Shown here: piece after piece, positions 24,905 through 31,492 of the stretch
Layout of the letters: each line of letters begins with the position of its first letter
Position numbering within the stretch: position 1 is the stretch's first letter
Origin: an uncultured Oscillospiraceae bacterium
GTDB lineage: Bacteria; Bacillota; Clostridia; Oscillospirales; Ruminococcaceae
Length of the DNA: 64,000 nucleotides
NCBI GenBank assembly: GCA_934481385.1
Contig: CAKSPD010000008.1
Coordinates: forward strand, 1-64,000
Reading direction: 5' to 3'
The notes under the pieces: model-generated
What the model was told of the DNA's origin: nothing
What the model saw: only the letters and a program-made list of their open reading frames with translations
Databases searched by the model: none
Translations under genes and position numbers: made by a program

Positions 24905-26107
24905 TTATTTATTATAACAGGAAATTATGCTGTCGAGAATTTTTCCTGCCACCTCGGATTTATCCATAAGTTCAAGCTGTTTTTCGCCTGATTTCGTTAT
25001 AATCGTAACAATGTTTGTATCAGTTCCGAATCCTGCACCTTTCTGATTAAGAGAATTTGCACATATCATATCAATATTTTTTGAAATCAGTTTCTTTCTT
25101 GAATTTTCAAGCATATTTTCAGTTTCCATTGAAAAACCGCAGATAAACTGTTCAGGCTTTTTTATTCTTCCGAGTTCAGCTATTATATCATCGGTACGTT
25201 TCATTGCAACGGAGAGATTTCCGTCATGTTTTTTAATTTTCTGACTGCTTACAGTTTCGGGAGTATAATCTGCTACTGCTGCCGATTTTACTACTATATC
25301 ACATTCAGAGAATTTTTCCATAACGGCATTATACATATCCTTTGCAGATACTACCGGAACAAATTTTACTCCCTCCGGAACATCAAGATTTGTTCTGCCA
25401 CTTACAAGAATTACATCTGCTCCGCGTCTTACAGCCTCCTGAGCAACTGAATATCCCATTTTCCCTGTTGAATGATTTGTGATATATCTCACAGGGTCAA
25501 GAGCCTCCTGAGTAGCTCCTGCTGTAACAAGAATTTTTTTACCTGAAAGGTCTTTTTTATAGAGTGAACGTATAACATATTCAAGAAGAATTTTTTCATC
25601 AGGCATTCTTCCGTCACCGTCATCACCGTTTGCAAGCATACCATGTGTGGCAGGAATTATTGTATATCCGTAATTTTCAAGCTTTGAAATATTATCCTGA
25701 ACTATCGGATTATGATACATATTATGATTCATAGCAGGTGAAATAATTTTAGGTGCAGTGCTTGCCATAACAGTTGTAGTCAGCATATCATCTGCAATTC
25801 CGTTTGCAATCTTTCCGATTACATTAGCCGTTGCAGGAGCTATTATTATTGAATCGGATTTTTTTGCAAGTGCCACATGTTCAACGCTGTACTGAAAATT
25901 TCTGTCGAATGTATCAACAATGCATTTATTTTTTGTGAGTGTTTCAAAAGTAAACGGAGTTATAAAATTTGTGGCGTTCTGAGTCATAATTACATTTACT
26001 TCCCCGCCAAGCTTTACAATCATTCTTGCAAGATTGGGAATTTTATATGATGCAATTCCCCCTGTAACTCCTATGAGAACCGATTTATTTTCCAGAATTT
26101 TATTCAT
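24905..26107 (-). CDS. coaBC: Bifunctional phosphopantothenoylcysteine decarboxylase / phosphopantothenate-cysteine ligase
   Basis: Makes 4'-phosphopantetheine for coenzyme A from phosphopantothenate and cysteine. 400 residues from the ATG at 26107 (AAGGAAG upstream); a start 18 bases earlier would place the ribosome site inside the gene. The N-terminal CoaC flavoprotein domain has GVTGGIASYK, IAPATANVIGKIANGIADDML and PAMNHNMY. The CoaB domain begins near 195 with ILVTAGATQEALDPVRYITNHSTGKMG and has AAVADYTP and the KxKK-type KIKKHD. It uses cysteine, which fits its place beside sulfur genes, though it has its own promoter and terminator. Confidence 0.96.
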   Translation of the reverse strand: MNKILENKSVLIGVTGGIASYKIPNLARMIVKLGGEVNVIMTQNATNFITPFTFETLTKNKCIVDTFDRNFQYSVEHVALAKKSDSIIIAPATANVIGKIANGIADDMLTTTVMASTAPKIISPAMNHNMYHNPIVQDNISKLENYGYTIIPATHGMLANGDDGDGRMPDEKILLEYVIRSLYKKDLSGKKILVTAGATQEALDPVRYITNHSTGKMGYSVAQEAVRRGADVILVSGRTNLDVPEGVKFVPVVSAKDMYNAVMEKFSECDIVVKSAAVADYTPETVSSQKIKKHDGNLSVAMKRTDDIIAELGRIKKPEQFICGFSMETENMLENSRKKLISKNIDMICANSLNQKGAGFGTDTNIVTIITKSGEKQLELMDKSEVAGKILDSIISCYNK

Positions 26108-26147
26108 TGAAAAACTTCCTTTCATTTTTTATATAATATATAGTATA

Positions 26148-26176
26148 ATTATATATTATTTTTTCCCTGATTTCAA
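26148..26176 (-). promoter_or_regulatory. Promoter of coaBC
   Basis: Minus-strand -35 TTGAAA (26171-26176), 17-bp spacer, -10 TATAAT (26148-26153). Confidence 0.75.
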
Positions 26177-26260
26177 GAATATTGCAAATTTATATCCTGA
26201 TTGGAAAATAATGTATAAAGTTCGCAGGTTTTTTTAAATGATTCTTTCAGAAAGCTGTGC

Positions 26261-26266
26261 TATAAT
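26261..26266 (+). promoter_or_regulatory. -10 element for the rtcB / RNA array / Ro-like operon
   Basis: TATAAT about 45 bp before the rtcB start. No good -35 lies 17 bp upstream, which could mean activator control; the enterobacterial rtc operon uses an activator, but no rtcR-like gene is visible here. Confidence 0.55.
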
Positions 26267-26311
26267 ACAATCATACCAAACAGCAGAGATTATTTCAGAG
26301 AGGTGAACAGA

Positions 26312-27547
26312 ATGTTCGTACAATATAATAAAAATTCCCAGAAATTCCCTATAAAGATATGGTGTGAAAATGCTGAATCCATTGACGAAAATTGTATGGA
26401 ACAGGCTATGCACCTCGCTAATCTTCCTTTTATATACAAGTGGGTGGCACTTATGCCCGATACTCATATGGGAAAAGGTATGCCTATCGGTGCAGTCATC
26501 GCTTGTAATGATGTTGTCATTCCTAATGCCGTAGGCGTTGATATTGGCTGTGGTATGGGATTTATTCAGACAAATATTCCTGTAAAGCTACTTAAAGAAA
26601 CTGTAACAGGAAGCGGAAATCTTGTAAAGGTCATTGTCGGAAATATTCAGAGAACTATTCCGCTTGGCGTTGCACATTACAAAAAACCGCAGGAATCTGC
26701 TGTTCTTTCTGAAGCAAAAAAGGAAATGGAAAAATACAGTTCAGAATCAGAACTTATTTCTGAAATTGATGAGGGATTTTTTCAGGTTGGTACTCTTGGC
26801 GGAGGAAATCACTTTATTGAAATTCAGGAGGACGAAAACGGTCTTGCCTGCATTATGCTACATTCCGGTTCAAGACATTTCGGAAATGTAATTGGTCAGC
26901 ATTTCAATAAAATTGCAAGGGAACTTAACAGAAAATACTGGTCAGATGTTCCCGAAAGCTATAATCTGCCGTTTCTTCCTGTCGATACTACGGAGGGAAA
27001 AAGCTATCTCAACTATATGAACCTCGCTATGAATTTTGCCTTTGAAAACAGAGCTGTTATGCTCCGAAAAGTAAAAGATATTTTCAGCGAAAACGTTCAG
27101 AAGTTTGCAGGAGTCACAACAGAATTTTCAAATGAAATAAACTGCCACCACAATTATGCATCACTCGAAAATCATTTCGATAAAGATGTATGGGTACACC
27201 GCAAAGGTGCAGTAAGGGTTTCAGAGGGTGAACTTTCAATAATTCCCGGTGCTATGGGAAGTTTCAGCTATATAGTAAAAGGGAAAGGAAATCCTGAAAG
27301 TTTTATGTCATCTTCTCATGGTGCAGGCAGAAAGCTTTCACGAACAAAGGCTGTTGAAACTTTTTCCGTTGAAACTGTTATGACAGACCTCAAAAAACAA
27401 GACGTTGTTCTTGGAAAAAATAATAAATCCGATGTTGCAGAGGAATCACGCTTTGCATATAAAGATATTGACGTGGTTATGGAAAATCAGAAAGATTTGG
27501 TTGAACCCGTCAAAAAGCTCTTTACAGTCGGAGTAGTAAAAGGATAA
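26312..27547 (+). CDS. rtcB: RNA-splicing/repair ligase RtcB
   Basis: GTP- and Mn2+-dependent ligase that joins 2',3'-cyclic phosphate or 3'-phosphate RNA ends to 5'-OH ends. 411 residues from the ATG at 26312 (AGAGG eight bases upstream); an in-frame GTG at 26303 overlaps that site. Motifs: MPDTHMGKGMPIGAV, VGVDIGCGM (metal-binding Cys), GGGNHFIEI, CHHNYA, and SSHGAGRKLSR, whose H336 is the guanylylated histidine position. No archease or RtcA gene is adjacent. The gene is followed at once by an array of tRNA-like RNAs and a Ro60-like gene on the same strand, so its substrate is probably damaged or processed RNA in that context. Confidence 0.95.
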   Translation: MFVQYNKNSQKFPIKIWCENAESIDENCMEQAMHLANLPFIYKWVALMPDTHMGKGMPIGAVIACNDVVIPNAVGVDIGCGMGFIQTNIPVKLLKETVTGSGNLVKVIVGNIQRTIPLGVAHYKKPQESAVLSEAKKEMEKYSSESELISEIDEGFFQVGTLGGGNHFIEIQEDENGLACIMLHSGSRHFGNVIGQHFNKIARELNRKYWSDVPESYNLPFLPVDTTEGKSYLNYMNLAMNFAFENRAVMLRKVKDIFSENVQKFAGVTTEFSNEINCHHNYASLENHFDKDVWVHRKGAVRVSEGELSIIPGAMGSFSYIVKGKGNPESFMSSSHGAGRKLSRTKAVETFSVETVMTDLKKQDVVLGKNNKSDVAEESRFAYKDIDVVMENQKDLVEPVKKLFTVGVVKG

Positions 27548-27556
27548 TATTTATTT

Positions 27557-27615
27557 AAGACGCTTACAGCAATCTGATTTATTTCATTTTATGGTATGAT
27601 AAAATATAGCGTCTT
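27557..27615 (+). ncRNA. Array element 1: stem-loop with ACAGCAA motif
   Basis: AAGACGCT (27557-27564) is a perfect complement of AGCGTCTT (27608-27615). Directly after the first arm comes TACAGCAA, the sequence found at the same place in the larger units of the array. The 43-base interior is AT-rich with no tRNA-like part. It begins 10 bp after the rtcB stop and is not followed by a T run, so it is not an ordinary terminator. Confidence 0.5.
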
Positions 27616-27628
27616 GTAAAAACTGAAT

Positions 27629-27756
27629 ACGATACATACAGCAAATTATATCCTCGCCAACCACCAGTGCGTGAGCAGAACAGTCCGCAGTTTACTGCGG
27701 AAAGATGCAGTTCGAGTCTGCCGTTGGGGAATGTAGTTCAAAGCACAATGTATCGT
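27629..27756 (+). ncRNA. Array element 2: tRNA-like RNA, divergent
   Basis: ACGATACAT (27629-27637) pairs perfectly with ATGTATCGT (27748-27756), enclosing 110 bases. TACAGCAA-type sequence follows the first arm. The interior has a T-arm-like hairpin (GCAG, loop TTCGAGT, CTGC), a strong CCGCAG-TTTA-CTGCGG hairpin, and CCAAC/GTTGG arms, giving a partly tRNA-shaped fold in ordinary 5'-3' order. It differs from the three later permuted units but shares their T loop. No CCA end and no proper anticodon loop, so it is not a functional tRNA. Confidence 0.5.
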
Positions 27757-27771
27757 GCAAATTTATTAAAC

Positions 27772-27835
27772 GTTGCAGACAGCATTTTTTCAGATTTAGT
27801 TATTTAGCTATTAGGGTGAAAGACCTTAATGCAAC
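27772..27835 (+). ncRNA. Array element 3: stem-loop with GACAGCA motif
   Basis: GTTGCA (27772-27777) pairs with TGCAAC (27830-27835); GACAGCA follows the first arm, resembling the ACAGCAA motif elsewhere in the array. An inner TTAGG...CCTTAA hairpin is conserved in the spacers before the next two units. The short stem makes this the weakest element. Confidence 0.35.
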
Positions 27836-27847
27836 CTGCACAACCTT

Positions 27848-27960
27848 ACGGTGCTTACAGCAAAAAAATAGCAATATCTGGTCATCGGTTCGAGTCCGAT
27901 TGCCCGTCTGTTTCAGGCTGGTATAGCTCAGCTGGTAGAGCGATACTTTTTACGCACCGT
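27848..27960 (+). ncRNA. Array element 4: Y RNA-like, circularly permuted tRNA mimic (copy A)
   Basis: A 113-base unit enclosed by ACGGTGC (27848-27854) and GCACCGT (27954-27960). In order inside: TTACAGCAA motif; GTC then a T arm (ATCGG, loop TTCGAGT, CCGAT; 27884-27900); an acceptor-like helix closed by a TTT loop (27901-27923); TA at the tRNA 8-9 positions; a D arm (GCTC, loop AGCTGGTA with GG, GAGC; 27926-27941). So the 3' half of a tRNA precedes the 5' half and the acceptor end is sealed, as in the tRNA-like module of bacterial Y RNAs. The inner stem next to the D arm (AATATC with GATACT) has one mismatch here. Confidence 0.75.
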
Positions 27961-28020
27961 GTATACGATACTATCATAGCTATCAAGGTGCAAAACTTTA
28001 ATGCAACGTGCAAAATCTTT

Positions 28021-28133
28021 ACGGTGCTTACAGCAAAAAAATGGCAGTATTCGTCATCGGTTCGAGTCCGATTGTCTGTCTGTTTCAGACCGGCATAGCT
28101 CAGATGGATAGAGCGATACTTTTTACGCACCGT
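28021..28133 (+). ncRNA. Array element 5: Y RNA-like, circularly permuted tRNA mimic (copy B)
   Basis: Same plan as copy A: terminal stem ACGGTGC/GCACCGT, ACAGCAA motif, inner stem AGTATT/GATACT (six pairs, one G-U), T arm identical to copy A, sealed acceptor helix (TGTCTGTCTG, loop TTT, CAGACCGGCA), U8-A9 equivalent TA, D arm with loop AGATGGATA. Relative to copy A the acceptor helix changes C-to-T and T-to-C on its two strands in ways that mostly keep pairing. The D-loop GG and T-loop TTC needed for elbow contacts are intact. Confidence 0.78.
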
Positions 28134-28193
28134 GTATACGATACTATCGTAACTATCAGGGTTCAAAAACCTGATTCAACGTACAAAACCTTT

Positions 28194-28317
28194 ACGGTGC
28201 TTACAGCAACCAATATTTTTTATGAATTACAGTATTTGTCATCGGTTCGAGTCCGATTGTCTGTCTGTTTCAGACCGGCATAGCTCAGCTGGTAGAGCGA
28301 TACTTTTTACGCACCGT
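28194..28317 (+). ncRNA. Array element 6: Y RNA-like, circularly permuted tRNA mimic (copy C)
   Basis: Same plan as copies A and B, 124 bases long because the loop after ACAGCAA is extended. Terminal stem ACGGTGC/GCACCGT, inner stem AGTATT/GATACT, identical T arm, acceptor helix identical to copy B, D loop identical to copy A. The spacer before it has a TCAGG/CCTGA hairpin at the place of the hairpins preceding the other copies. Confidence 0.78.
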
Positions 28318-28321
28318 GTAT

Positions 28322-28376
28322 ACGATACATACAGCAAAAATAATTGTGAAAAATTTACAGATTTTTATCGTATCGT
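28322..28376 (+). ncRNA. Array element 7: stem-loop with ACAGCAA motif
   Basis: ACGATAC (28322-28328) pairs with GTATCGT (28370-28376); ATACAGCAA follows the first arm. It reuses the ACGATACATACAGCAA sequence that opens element 2. No T run follows, so transcription can continue into the Ro-like gene 33 bp downstream. Confidence 0.5.
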
Positions 28377-28408
28377 GAAAAAGAAATCAATGCAGGGAGG
28401 AATTTTCA

Positions 28409-29890
28409 ATGAGTTTTCTGAAAAAACTTAAAAATCAGTCAAATATTACATATACTGAAAACGGAGCTGTTACAAACAAAAGCTCTCTTTCAGATTGTCT
28501 TGACCTTTTCTTTATAGCAGGTGCTTCAAGAAATTTGTCTAATAAGGATATTTATGATAAAGTAACAAGGGCTTTTGTTGAGGACAAAGACTTAACTATG
28601 AAAATTCTTTTCTTTGCAAGAGATATAAGAGGCGGTCTGGGCGAAAGAAGATTTTTCAGAATTGCTATGCAAATCGTTTCAAGATTAAGTCCTGAATCAG
28701 TGGATAAGAATTTAAAATTATTCTCTGAATACGGCAGATATGATGATATACTTGCTGTCTATTATTCACCTGAAATTCATGACAGTGTACTCAGTATAAT
28801 CAAAAATCAGCTTGAAGAAGATAAAAATAACATGAATGAGCAGAAACAGGTTTCACTTCTTGCAAAATGGCTTCCGTCTGTAAATGCTTCATCGATTGAA
28901 ACAAAAAATTTTGCAAGAAAAATTGCTTTCGACCTCGGAATAAGTGAACCTGAATACAGAAAAACTCTCTCATCACTCAGAAAGTATATCGATATTCTTG
29001 AAAGCAGACTCTGCAAAAAGGATTATACTTTTGATTATTCAAAACAGCCTTCAAATGCTATGCTTAAATACAGAAAAGCCTTTTTACGCAACGATAACGA
29101 ACGATACACAAAGTTTATTGAAGATGTAGTAAAAGGAAACAAAAAGCTCAATGCAGGTACTCTTTATCCATATCAGATTGTTAATAAAATCAAAAAAAAT
29201 ATCTTCTCTTTAAGTGATGATGAAAAAAAATCACTCGATGCAACATGGAAATCTCTCAGCAATATTGAAAATTCTCAGAATGCAATTGCTGTTATAGACG
29301 GTTCAGGCTCTATGTACTGGAGCAGTCAGTCTGTTATACCTGCTGATGTTGCAATTTCACTCGGAATTTATTTTGCTGAACACAACAAGGGTGCTTTTAA
29401 AAATCATTTCATAACTTTTTCAATGACTCCGAAACTTGTTGAAATCAAGGGAAATGATATTTATGAAAAGGTAAAATATGTATCATCATTCAATGAGTGT
29501 GCAAATACGAATATACAGGCTGTCTTTGACCTTATTTTAGATACGGCAGTAAAAAATAAAACTCCTCAGGAGGAACTTCCTGAAACTGTTTATATCATAT
29601 CGGATATGGAATTTGACGAATGTGCCAGAAACGGTCAGAATAAATTCACCAACTATGAAACAGCAAAACAGAAATTCAATAAAAAAGGATATGCTCTTCC
29701 GAACGTTGTTTTCTGGAATGTAAATTCCCGTGTATCACAAGTTCCTGTAACTATGCACGAAAACGGTACAGCTCTTGTTTCAGGTGCAACACCTCAGATT
29801 TTCGATATGGTAAAATCAGGCGATATAAATCCTCTTTCAATTATGATGGATATTTTAAATTCAGAAAGATATTCAAACATTACAGCTTAA
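28409..29890 (+). CDS. Ro60/TROVE-like (DUF2828-type) RNA-binding protein with vWA domain
   Basis: A 493-residue protein. Residues 1 to about 285 are helical and resemble bacterial TROVE/DUF2828 proteins (FFIAGASRNLSNKDI, MKILFFARDIRGGLGERRFFR, EYGRYDDIL), the HEAT-like ring that binds Y RNA and misfolded RNA in Ro60. Residues about 290-490 form a vWA domain with an intact MIDAS: D297-G-S299-G-S301, T367 and D399 (ISDMEFD). The start is the ATG at 28409 with GGGAGG eight bases upstream. It follows the tRNA-mimic array and rtcB on the same strand with no terminator between, as Ro, Y RNA and RtcB are grouped in enterobacteria. Whether it belongs to TROVE proper or to the related DUF2828 group needs a profile search. 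Confidence 0.8.
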   Translation: MSFLKKLKNQSNITYTENGAVTNKSSLSDCLDLFFIAGASRNLSNKDIYDKVTRAFVEDKDLTMKILFFARDIRGGLGERRFFRIAMQIVSRLSPESVDKNLKLFSEYGRYDDILAVYYSPEIHDSVLSIIKNQLEEDKNNMNEQKQVSLLAKWLPSVNASSIETKNFARKIAFDLGISEPEYRKTLSSLRKYIDILESRLCKKDYTFDYSKQPSNAMLKYRKAFLRNDNERYTKFIEDVVKGNKKLNAGTLYPYQIVNKIKKNIFSLSDDEKKSLDATWKSLSNIENSQNAIAVIDGSGSMYWSSQSVIPADVAISLGIYFAEHNKGAFKNHFITFSMTPKLVEIKGNDIYEKVKYVSSFNECANTNIQAVFDLILDTAVKNKTPQEELPETVYIISDMEFDECARNGQNKFTNYETAKQKFNKKGYALPNVVFWNVNSRVSQVPVTMHENGTALVSGATPQIFDMVKSGDINPLSIMMDILNSERYSNITA

Positions 29891-29892
29891 AT

Positions 29893-29928
29893 AAAAGGCA
29901 GTCGGAAAGTTTTCTGACTGCCTTTTTT
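29893..29928 (+). terminator. Terminator of the rtcB - RNA array - Ro-like operon
   Basis: AAAAGGCAGTC (29893-29903) pairs with GACTGCCTTTT (29916-29926), with further pairing inside, followed by T residues. It is the first good terminator after rtcB. Confidence 0.92.
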
Positions 29929-29957
29929 ATGTTAAAAAAATATTTTCATAAAAATAC

Positions 29958-29986
29958 TGGACAAATCGTTATTATTGTGATATAAT
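29958..29986 (+). promoter_or_regulatory. Promoter of the zinc-ribbon protein gene
   Basis: -35 TGGACA (29958-29963), 17-bp spacer, -10 TATAAT (29981-29986). Confidence 0.75.
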
Positions 29987-30019
29987 AATCATAATGTTTT
30001 TTTTAAAGGAGCAAAAATT

Positions 30020-30487
30020 ATGGGCATTATGTCAATATTCAAACCTAATAAAAAATATTTCAGCAAAACTATTCCGCCGAAATGTGATTACTGCCATTTC
30101 GGAAAACGTGCAAAATCGGGAAATAAAGTCCTCTGCGAAAAAAGCGGTCTTGTTGACTGTACATATTCATGCGGAAAATTTGTATACTCACCTCTCAAAA
30201 GAATACCTGTAAAACAGCTTAAATTCGCCGGAAGTCTTGCTGATGAAGATATATATATTGAATCAGCTTATGAAAAACAGCAAAAAGAAGCTGAACAGGC
30301 TAAAATTAAACAAAAAGAAGAAGAAAAAAATAATAATAATCCTGAACCTGCTGAAAAAAAATCCAAACCTGTTTCTAAAACTAATCAGCAACAGGAAGAA
30401 GATATAAATATTGAAAGCATTGAAACATATCACACTGATACAAATCAGTATGAAGATGACGAACAGGACGAAATTATACATAACTGA
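30020..30487 (+). CDS. Small cysteine-rich protein of unknown function
   Basis: A 155-residue protein I cannot assign to a named family. The N-terminal third (IFKPNKKYFSKTIPPKCDYC...) has a CDYC pair and three more Cys in a spacing that could form a zinc site (C-x2-C, then C, C and C by residue 51). The rest is a low-complexity, Lys/Glu/Asn-rich, probably disordered tail ending in acidic residues. No signal peptide. It has its own promoter and terminator. The start is the ATG after AAAGGAG. Confidence 0.7.
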   Translation: MGIMSIFKPNKKYFSKTIPPKCDYCHFGKRAKSGNKVLCEKSGLVDCTYSCGKFVYSPLKRIPVKQLKFAGSLADEDIYIESAYEKQQKEAEQAKIKQKEEEKNNNNPEPAEKKSKPVSKTNQQQEEDINIESIETYHTDTNQYEDDEQDEIIHN

Positions 30488-30556: not shown

Positions 30557-31492
30557 TTGAATCCGTTTAAGTATTCTGACGACAATAAACGTTATCACAC
30601 TCTTAATTATTATAACAGGCACAGATATGGATTTAAAGTATATAAAGCTGTTATTGAAGCCGGTTTTTCCTGTCCCAATATTGACGGTTCAAAAGGTATC
30701 GGAGGCTGTATATTCTGTGACGGCGGAAGCGGTTATTTTACAAATCCCACTTTAAGCATTGAAAATCAGATTAAATCCGAGCTTGAACGTATTCACAGAA
30801 AAGTTCCCGATTCAAAGGCTGTTGCATACTTTCAGGCTAATACAAACACTTATGCCACTGTTGAAAAACTGCGTGAGCTTTTTGAAATTCCGCTGAAATT
30901 CAATGGTATCTGCGGTATATCAATAGGAACTCGTGCGGACTGTCTGTCTGATGATATTACAGAATATCTGAAAGAACTTAATTCACGCACAAATCTTACT
31001 GTTGAACTCGGACTCCAGTCCGTTCATGACAAAACACTTGAATATATCAACAGAGGATATTCACATAATGAATTTCTTGAGGGATATTACAGACTTAAAG
31101 AAAATAATATTCGTGTATGCCTGCATATTATAAACGGTCTGCCCTGTGAAAATTATGATATGATGATTGAAACTGCCCGTCAGGTTGGTGAAATGTCACC
31201 TGATGCGGTTAAAATTCAGATGTTGCATATTATAAACGGCACTCGCCTTGCTGACATTTATTCTGAAAATAATTTCAGTATGCTTTCTATGCAGGAATAT
31301 ATTAATATAACAGTCCGTCAGCTTGAACTTCTTCCGCCTGAAACAGTAATTGAAAGAATTACAGGTGACGGAAACAGAAAAAAACTTATTGCACCTCTTT
31401 GGAGTGCAAATAAAATCGCCGTTTTGGGCGGTATTGATAAACGGCTGGCGGAGCTTGATTCCTTTCAGGGAAAATTTTTCAAAAACACATGA
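30557..31492 (+). CDS. Radical SAM protein, YhcC / TIGR01212-like
   Basis: A 311-residue radical SAM protein. The cluster motif is C-x12-C-x2-C (CPNIDGSKGIGGCIFC), the spacing of the YhcC family. SIGTRADCLSDDI, ELGLQSVHDKTLEYINRGY and HIINGLPCENYDMM are further family hallmarks. The biochemical role of the family is not settled. The start is a TTG seven bases after AGGAGG. Confidence 0.88.
   Translation: MNPFKYSDDNKRYHTLNYYNRHRYGFKVYKAVIEAGFSCPNIDGSKGIGGCIFCDGGSGYFTNPTLSIENQIKSELERIHRKVPDSKAVAYFQANTNTYATVEKLRELFEIPLKFNGICGISIGTRADCLSDDITEYLKELNSRTNLTVELGLQSVHDKTLEYINRGYSHNEFLEGYYRLKENNIRVCLHIINGLPCENYDMMIETARQVGEMSPDAVKIQMLHIINGTRLADIYSENNFSMLSMQEYINITVRQLELLPPETVIERITGDGNRKKLIAPLWSANKIAVLGGIDKRLAELDSFQGKFFKNT

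Follow-up and report, generated by a model that had tools for sequence, protein, structure and literature searches.

In Salmonella, a Ro protein, tRNA-mimicking Y RNAs and the RNA ligase RtcB are brought together in the rsr-yrlBA-rtcBA operon, whose inducing signal is tRNA cleavage (PMC7790460); that study left the roles of Ro and the Y RNAs beside RtcB unaddressed and offered, as possibilities, a part in decay or in the competitive inhibition of an anticodon nuclease. Phages with Ro/TROVE proteins and YrlA-type partners have also been published (PMC7824862, PMC7765460). Here we describe a related locus in a 64,000-nucleotide stretch from an uncultured Oscillospiraceae bacterium (contig CAKSPD010000008.1; hereafter the window), in which an rtcB gene, an array of seven elements marked by the motif ACAGCA and a gene for a Ro60-like protein (ro) follow each other. 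The elements have a fixed register and complementary stems, lie on the strand of ro, and are shared by bacteria and phages that carry the Ro-like protein; many of their apices have tRNA-like sequence. The seven are likely to be RNA genes, transcribed as Y-like RNAs. All the results were obtained by computation on sequence.

The 861 bp between rtcB and ro (27548-28408), on the + strand like both genes, contain no convincing gene. Seven ACAGCA motifs occur there in one register, in which the first seven of the nine bases preceding each motif pair with a downstream strand, followed by a G. The array is not a product of chance, because its seven elements share this register and six of them have 7/7 closing pairs to the near partner, the element at 27770 having a C.C mismatch. 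Elements 1 (27557-27616, AAGACGCTT-ACAGCA, 8 bp) and 7 (28322-28377, ACGATACAT-ACAGCA, directly before ro) are short hairpins that scored 45.5 bits (E 6e-10) and 41.0 bits (E 7e-9) against a covariance model of the short form (R1), to which both had contributed a row. Element 2 (27629-27757) has a 9-bp closing stem, a long arm (27684-27701) and a T arm (27707-27721; four pairs, loop TTCGAGT); these arms were read by eye and missed by a 5-pair T/D pattern scan, and both are present in the homologue in the relative L001 (5396-5532). Its fold had a z-score of -4.3, none of 200 shuffles being as good (27624-27760). Element 3 (27770-27838, ACGTTGCAG-ACAGCA) carries the single C.C mismatch with its near partner TGCAACCT (27830-27837), has an alternative perfect partner at 28002-28009 and matched R1 weakly (11.7 bits, E 0.14), and the stem of its counterpart in L001 (5638-5731) is fully paired.

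Elements 4 (27848-27961), 5 (28021-28134) and 6 (28194-28318) enclose a permuted tRNA-like module, with a T arm, an acceptor-like hairpin and a D arm inside the closing stem, which is the order of the Y RNA YrlA and is also found in L024 (5784-5877). In element 4 the T arm lies at 27884-27900 and the D arm at 27926-27941, and its closing stem, ACGGTGC/GCACCGT, recurs in element 5. The modules keep TTCGA, and GG in the D loop. Against the YrlA model (RF02553) they scored 31.8 bits (E 8e-5), 34.6 bits (E 1.3e-5) and, for the core 28233-28302 of element 6, 28.9 bits (E 6e-4), below the cut-off of 69. Together with the T arm of element 2, four of the seven apices in the window have tRNA-like parts. 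The first-pass annotation had proposed several different Y-like RNAs, and this expectation agrees with seven putative RNA elements of which three match YrlA; their number and their sharing with other genomes go beyond what had been seen then. Three copies of a 43-nt spacer accompany the tRNA-like elements at a period of 172-173 nt (27805-28192), and elements 4-6 therefore probably arose by tandem duplication.

No tRNA was found in the window by ARAGORN. A permissive search of a short stretch, the only one in which it appeared, gave a linear match to the Rfam tRNA model (27917-28080, 37.4 bits, above Rfam's 29) that combines the D arm of element 4 and the T arm of element 5, with 94 positions between them; it was rejected because the first arm of the array is a T arm and the last a D arm, and because in relatives T and then D are found inside the closed stem of a single element (L004, L020, L022, L024, L028 and L036). 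Of six elements folded against shuffles, one had a z-score of -4.3, three lay between -1.6 and -2.3, and two short ones had -0.8 and -1.2. The array would have been missed by folding energy alone, and is revealed by the comparison with relatives.

For this comparison, the best 80 of at least 507 relatives by the Ro-like protein and the window formed a genome set of 81 loci, mostly from Ruminococcus and other Oscillospiraceae, and also from Synergistaceae, Lachnospiraceae, Anaerocolumna and Mogibacterium; these loci are near relatives and not independent of one another. A second set, of 80 viral contigs, six phages and one plasmid, has only the protein family in common with the first. The form of the element was first spotted by eye in the window; the genome set then served to define it and the viral set to test it. 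Motifs upstream of ro were fully paired in 256 of 330 cases, distributed over 79 of the 81 genome loci (window included), with 0/30 on the reverse strand and 1/34 downstream of ro as controls. This count and the survey of gene order include pairings spanning more than about 200 nt; the span limits were 75-130 nt for counts of apices, 200 nt for the T/D pattern count and 171 nt for counts of elements by place. A candidate element at -2138 relative to ro (288 nt, inside rtcB) was taken as chance pairing, as were the other pairings spanning more than about 200 nt.

In an open test, all 4096 hexamers were scored for occurrence in this register, at the set spacing from a 7-pair stem with a 3' G. 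The first rank went to ACAGCA in the genome set (254/680 vs 8.6 expected, in 80 loci; the runner-up, GCAGCA, reached 24/413) and again in the viral, phage and plasmid set (153/405 vs 5.7 expected), where 58 of 87 loci had it. On the reverse strand the motif stood in the stem register in 6/379 and 1/150 cases, and its 59 permutations, pooled, gave 136/12,714 and 172/10,118, for the genome and viral sets respectively. When the 9-mer was swapped for that of other loci, pairing fell from 250/333 to a mean of 39 in the genome set and from 153/405 to a mean of 8 in the viral set. An alignment of 48 short elements shows changes on both sides at every one of the seven pairs (82 cells vs 19.7 in shuffles), in rows that had been chosen beforehand as paired, so that the hexamer and swap controls carry the weight. 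The R1 model, which detects short forms, yielded at E<=0.01 88 matches in 44 of the 75 viral contigs unused for its building, and two in the window (the clear matches of elements 1 and 7); all 90 lay on the ro strand. The motif can vary at its first base, because GCAGCA and TCAGCA were also enriched in the genome set and because L001 has an extra element (between 5531 and 5638) with CCAGCA for ACAGCA and, as read by eye, a T arm in its apex.

An ACAGCA element adjoins ro in eight of 12 phage records, the other four having none in flanks of 2.5-3 kb; within 3 kb, none was found in the Vibrio phi-Grn1, Fusobacterium FNU3, Acinetobacter ME3 and Erwinia Kaldavass phages. The view of the locus as a Gram-positive counterpart of the enterobacterial operon proved too narrow, since elements adjoin the Ro-like gene in phages of Bacillus, Listeria, Staphylococcus, Enterococcus, Mycobacterium, Campylobacter and E. 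coli, and are also found in Synergistaceae. The stable RNAs rnaC and rnaD near the T4 tRNA genes were considered as members and rejected, having no ACAGCA element; T4 rnaC (L204, 1409-1547), the species 1 RNA, has a T arm (CCGGGTTCGAATCCCGG) at its end. No description of the ACAGCA element or of anticodon-arm Y RNAs was met in a partial search of the literature, which is no claim of their absence from print.

Loops of 7 nt are in excess in the apices of both sets. Folded apices had 7-nt loops in 120/346 cases in genomes vs 136/1495 in shuffles, and in 74/200 vs 67/832 in the phage set. When 7-nt loops on stems of four or more pairs were counted without folding, in 236 distinct genome bodies and 147 distinct phage, viral and plasmid bodies with 20 shuffles each, the former had 57 anticodon-type loops (9.45 expected) and the latter 53 (7.85 expected). 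Loops identical to one of 28 reference anticodon loops, taken from the tRNAs of a single species (R. flavefaciens XPD3002, 30 of 47 tRNA hits), numbered 23 (0.1 expected) and 26 (0.3 expected), respectively. Elements overlapping ARAGORN tRNAs were few (8/241 and 5/151), and among elements of up to 75 nt free of such overlap exact loops still occurred 17 times in genomes, spread over 15 loci (144 bodies; 0.08 expected), and 20 times in the phage set, spread over 17 loci (99 bodies; 0.16 expected). Examples are the loops of Phe (CTGAAAA), Lys (CTTTTAA), Glu (CTTTCAC) and Asp (CTGTCAC); CTGTCAA, seen in eight cases, has the Asp anticodon and a last base that differs from the R. flavefaciens Asp loop. 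Lys was the commonest type in the phage set (12/53), and its loop CTTTTAA stands on 13 different paired stems, indicating conservation of the loop on changing stems. L001, which with one other locus is closest to the window (RtcB 85%, Ro 74%), has anticodon-type loops of Ser-GCT and CTGTCAA.

T loops were likewise in excess, with 49 7-nt loops on stems of at least four pairs in the genome bodies (0.75 expected) and 20 in the phage, viral and plasmid bodies (0.35 expected). By pattern matches that were partly weak, with apex patterns that are loose and overlook degenerate parts, the T-D order was found in 12 of 259 genome elements (the three of the window included) and in four of 153 others, and the D-T order in nine and three. 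Several D-T elements (in L037, L058, L062, L071, L087 and L088) matched the tRNA model only between positions 4-6 and 65-67, for example over 4-67, 5-66 and 6-65, and look like tRNAs with the acceptor ends replaced by the motif stem. Positions 1-71 of the model were reached in L030, L079 and L094, which may be complete tRNAs inside the stem.

The order rtcB, array, ro was found in 23 of the 81 genome loci (window included), where an rtcB more than 50% identical to that of the window lies 317-980 nt before ro; all 23 gaps contain elements, three to seven in each. The first element lies within 17 nt of the aligned rtcB end in 13 of these gaps, and after about 500 nt in two (L065 and L068); the last one lies 11-34 nt before ro in 14 of the 23 arrays. 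Another 17 genome loci have rtcB beside ro in other orders, with a distant rtcB (about 28% identity) after ro in 15 and before it in two. The three-part order first read in the window is thus conserved among relatives. In L037 the array is upstream of both rtcB and ro, and the order array, rtcB, ro occurs in the fecal phage MT837221 and the plasmid OY725878. Since rtcB is absent beside many arrays and takes three orders relative to ro, ro and the array form the core, and RtcB is a recurrent partner that was joined in several ways, common in bacteria and not fixed. In Listeria phage P100 rtcB follows ro at a distance of about 1.4 kb, and a ROOL-like RNA near the cut-off (L083, 959-1510; 86 bits vs 99.1, E 6e-16) lies about 1 kb upstream of ro, between two tRNA genes and ahead of the elements. 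In L061 and L078, from Clostridiales and Mogibacterium metagenome-assembled genomes, 13 and 17 T-loop motifs were counted within 2.5 kb upstream of ro; these runs are perhaps tRNA arrays as in phages, and the two loci may be prophages.

In the window, rtcB occupies 26312-27547 (ATG start at 26312 with AGAGAGG upstream; a GTG at 26303 is the longer option) and ro 28409-29890 (493 aa, DUF2828 and DUF7788), consecutively on the + strand with the 861-bp gap between them, as the first-pass annotation had described. The unit is closed by an intrinsic-terminator-like hairpin (29893-29926, +, 15 pairs followed by a T run), in agreement with its remark that the first good terminator comes after the last gene: a scan of 25900-30100 found no + strand terminator-like hairpin between rtcB and ro, and the second + strand site in it, of seven pairs (29566-29583), falls within ro. 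A promoter scan gave 21 sites vs 16.1 in shuffles (sd 4.2), with no excess. The rtcB product, scanned from the codon at 26333, matched Pfam PF01139 with 372.7 bits (cut-off 27) and was assigned to the PHROG of tRNA splicing ligases; its alignment with P. horikoshii RtcB (1uc2) retains Asp/Cys, Asn-His and three more His, which have catalytic roles in this enzyme. Family match and active-site residues both identify it as RtcB, the identity given to it from the start. The 13 neighbouring proteins that were scanned, a subset of the open reading frames of the window, include no RtcA, archease or RtcR-like domain, which had likewise been noted as lacking. A gene for an MnmL/YtqA tRNA-modifying radical SAM enzyme (30557-31492, 323 bits) lies 0.7 kb past ro; of the loci compared, only L001 and L002 have it as well. 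The neighbours coaBC, MnmL, metG and uvrB are retained in L001 and partly in L002, and in no other of these loci.

No TROVE (PF05731) match was obtained for the ro product at E<=1, DUF7788 and DUF2828 being the only domains found. Its predicted model has the Ro60 fold, a helical-repeat ring with a von Willebrand factor A (vWA) domain, and Ro60/TROVE structures took Foldseek ranks 1-13 and VIA ranks 1-10, in line with the ring protein originally suggested. In the vWA domain D297-x-S299-x-S301, T367 and D399, the metal-site residues of a MIDAS, are invariant across 25 sequences. The protein belongs to PHROG 850, 'RNA-binding protein' (467 bits), a family present in 681 of 50,697 phage records. 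At six sampled TROVE-family loci (weak or partial matches, one of them a broken gene, about 1.5 kb on each side) none of the seven ACAGCA motifs on the scanned strand formed an element. Overproduction of LeBron gp53, a mycobacteriophage Ro-like protein, is reported to inhibit growth (PMC13148394); the DUF2828 literature that was searched, judged by titles, concerned plant work only.

RtcB joins 2',3'-cyclic phosphate and 5'-OH ends, which are left by many anticodon nucleases, and tRNA-Lys is cut by the nucleases PrrC and PARIS. We propose, with a probability of roughly one half, that Y-like RNAs on the Ro-like ring display tRNA arms as decoy or bait for tRNA-cutting nucleases, and that RtcB reseals the cut tRNAs. 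A polycistronic transcript would be cut into separate small RNAs; the ring would grip these by the shared stem and ACAGCA, with the head left free; the heads, copying what tRNA nucleases recognise, would compete for or trap such nucleases, and RtcB would reseal cut tRNAs in a pathway shared with the array. In a broader form, to which we give somewhat less than even chances, the locus would represent a cassette of gut bacteria and phages, in which a Ro60-like ring carries RNAs of common handle and exchangeable heads, each copying one tRNA part (particular anticodon arms, T arms or the elbow) and absorbing or trapping anticodon nucleases of phage-host conflict; phages would favour tRNA-Lys(UUU), and RtcB would restore cut tRNAs. 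The preference of phages for Lys loops would fit the cutting of tRNA-Lys by PrrC and PARIS.

Several observations weigh against this proposal. The seven elements of the window contain no anticodon loop, so that the decoy function leans on relatives, where exact loops occur, and 34 of the 57 genome and 27 of the 53 phage-set anticodon-type loops are not identical to those of the single reference host. By pattern, neither a T nor a D arm was found in 198/259 genome elements and 132/153 others. No rtcB lies within 2.5 kb at 24 of the 64 judgeable genome loci (17 of 81 could not be judged), and two rtcB queries found none in 63 judgeable viral contigs (0/63). The fetched DNA holds no ACAGCA element at 29/87 viral, phage and plasmid loci and in 4/12 phage records. 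The similarity of the predicted fold to Ro60 is only moderate (TM 0.36-0.56, 10-16% identity), and PADLOC has no model for RtcB or the Ro-like protein. In Salmonella, the tRNA-like domain of YrlA was not cut by the induced nuclease; Hughes and colleagues proposed, as one possibility, that YrlA competitively inhibits an anticodon nuclease, but no YrlA fragments were seen (PMC7790460).

The first-pass annotation had favoured a ring that uses Y-like RNAs to select RNAs for sealing by RtcB or for decay. Worked out as RNA quality control in the manner of RYPER, Y-like RNAs would tether the ring to PNPase or RtcB, structured or broken RNAs would be chosen for decay or for sealing, and the tRNA parts would be docking modules for these enzymes. 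The predicted Ro60 fold, the YrlA-like modules of the array and the Y RNA that tethers Rsr to PNPase in D. radiodurans (PMC7790460, PMC8394870) are consistent with it; it leaves unexplained the exact, varied anticodon loops on short hairpins and the preference of the phage set for tRNA-Lys loops, and many arrays have no RtcB beside them. We therefore consider it unlikely, the decoy or bait function fitting better than generic decay because the elements display tRNA arms, with exact anticodon loops in relatives and phages. The T-arm and D-arm modules might instead bring tRNA-modifying enzymes (TruB, Dus) or proteins that bind tRNA to Ro, as a chaperone or modification hub, for which the conserved TTCGA and D-loop GG of the window and the modification of YrlA by DusA and TruB (PMC8394870) can be cited; the short anticodon-arm elements have no explanation there, and such a hub is improbable. 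Slightly more improbable still is autoregulation, in which the elements would be sites for the Ro-like protein in its own leader, tuning translation. It would suit the 252 of 256 genome-locus elements upstream of ro and the arrays that finish just before it, and has against it the 34 of 153 phage and viral elements downstream of ro, the two of three elements of wV8 (L085) that lie between tRNA genes, the L037 array upstream of both genes, the presence of up to seven elements where one site would suffice, and the tRNA loops, which it does not explain. That the hairpins are debris or recombination sites of tRNA genes, remaining from integration, from recombination or from tRNA arrays that decayed and having no RNA role, is very improbable, in spite of the 64 of 153 phage-set elements within 150 nt of tRNA genes and the tandem duplicates in the window, given that the strand bias (88/88 viral matches of R1), the base changes on both sides of all seven pairs, the constant loop on 13 changing stems and the placement of elements in every rtcB-ro gap indicate selection on RNA.

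If the decoy or bait proposal is true, many phages and gut bacteria carry an RNA-based device of defence and counter-defence, and DUF2828/DUF7788 proteins have a role in it. The common motif would predict ring-bound RNAs, and each head would name the tRNA whose nuclease should be met. The RNA part of the device has no annotation as RNA in the annotated phage regions viewed, and in the window all elements of the array are below every Rfam gathering cut-off.

The locus was compared with the systems described to date. With the rsr-yrlBA-rtcBA operon it shares the association of a Ro-like protein, apparently tRNA-mimicking Y RNAs and RtcB, with co-transcription putative here; it differs in the lack of rtcA and rtcR among the 13 neighbours, in gene order, in its seven ACAGCA elements, in the anticodon arms of its relatives, and in a protein without a TROVE hit. 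With YrlA it shares the permuted T arm, acceptor-like hairpin and D arm and a closing stem beginning with ACGG (E 1e-5 to 6e-4), whereas its best score is about half of the cut-off, the Rfam consensus of YrlA has neither ACAGCA nor an anticodon arm, and most ACAGCA elements have no T/D module or have other tRNA arms. From Ro60 and Rsr proteins (Xenopus Ro 1yvr, D. radiodurans Rsr 2nvo and the Ro60 of Thermus phage phiLo, 9l5y) the window protein differs by its low identity and its Pfam assignment to DUF2828/DUF7788. The phage 'Ro-like RNA binding protein' of PHROG 850 is of the same family and is adjoined by the element in eight of the 12 phage records, most viral loci differing in that no rtcB is nearby. 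The locus falls outside TROVE by sequence, outside YrlA by the cut-off and outside rsr-yrl-rtcBA by rtcA and rtcR, and it resembles each of the three in part.

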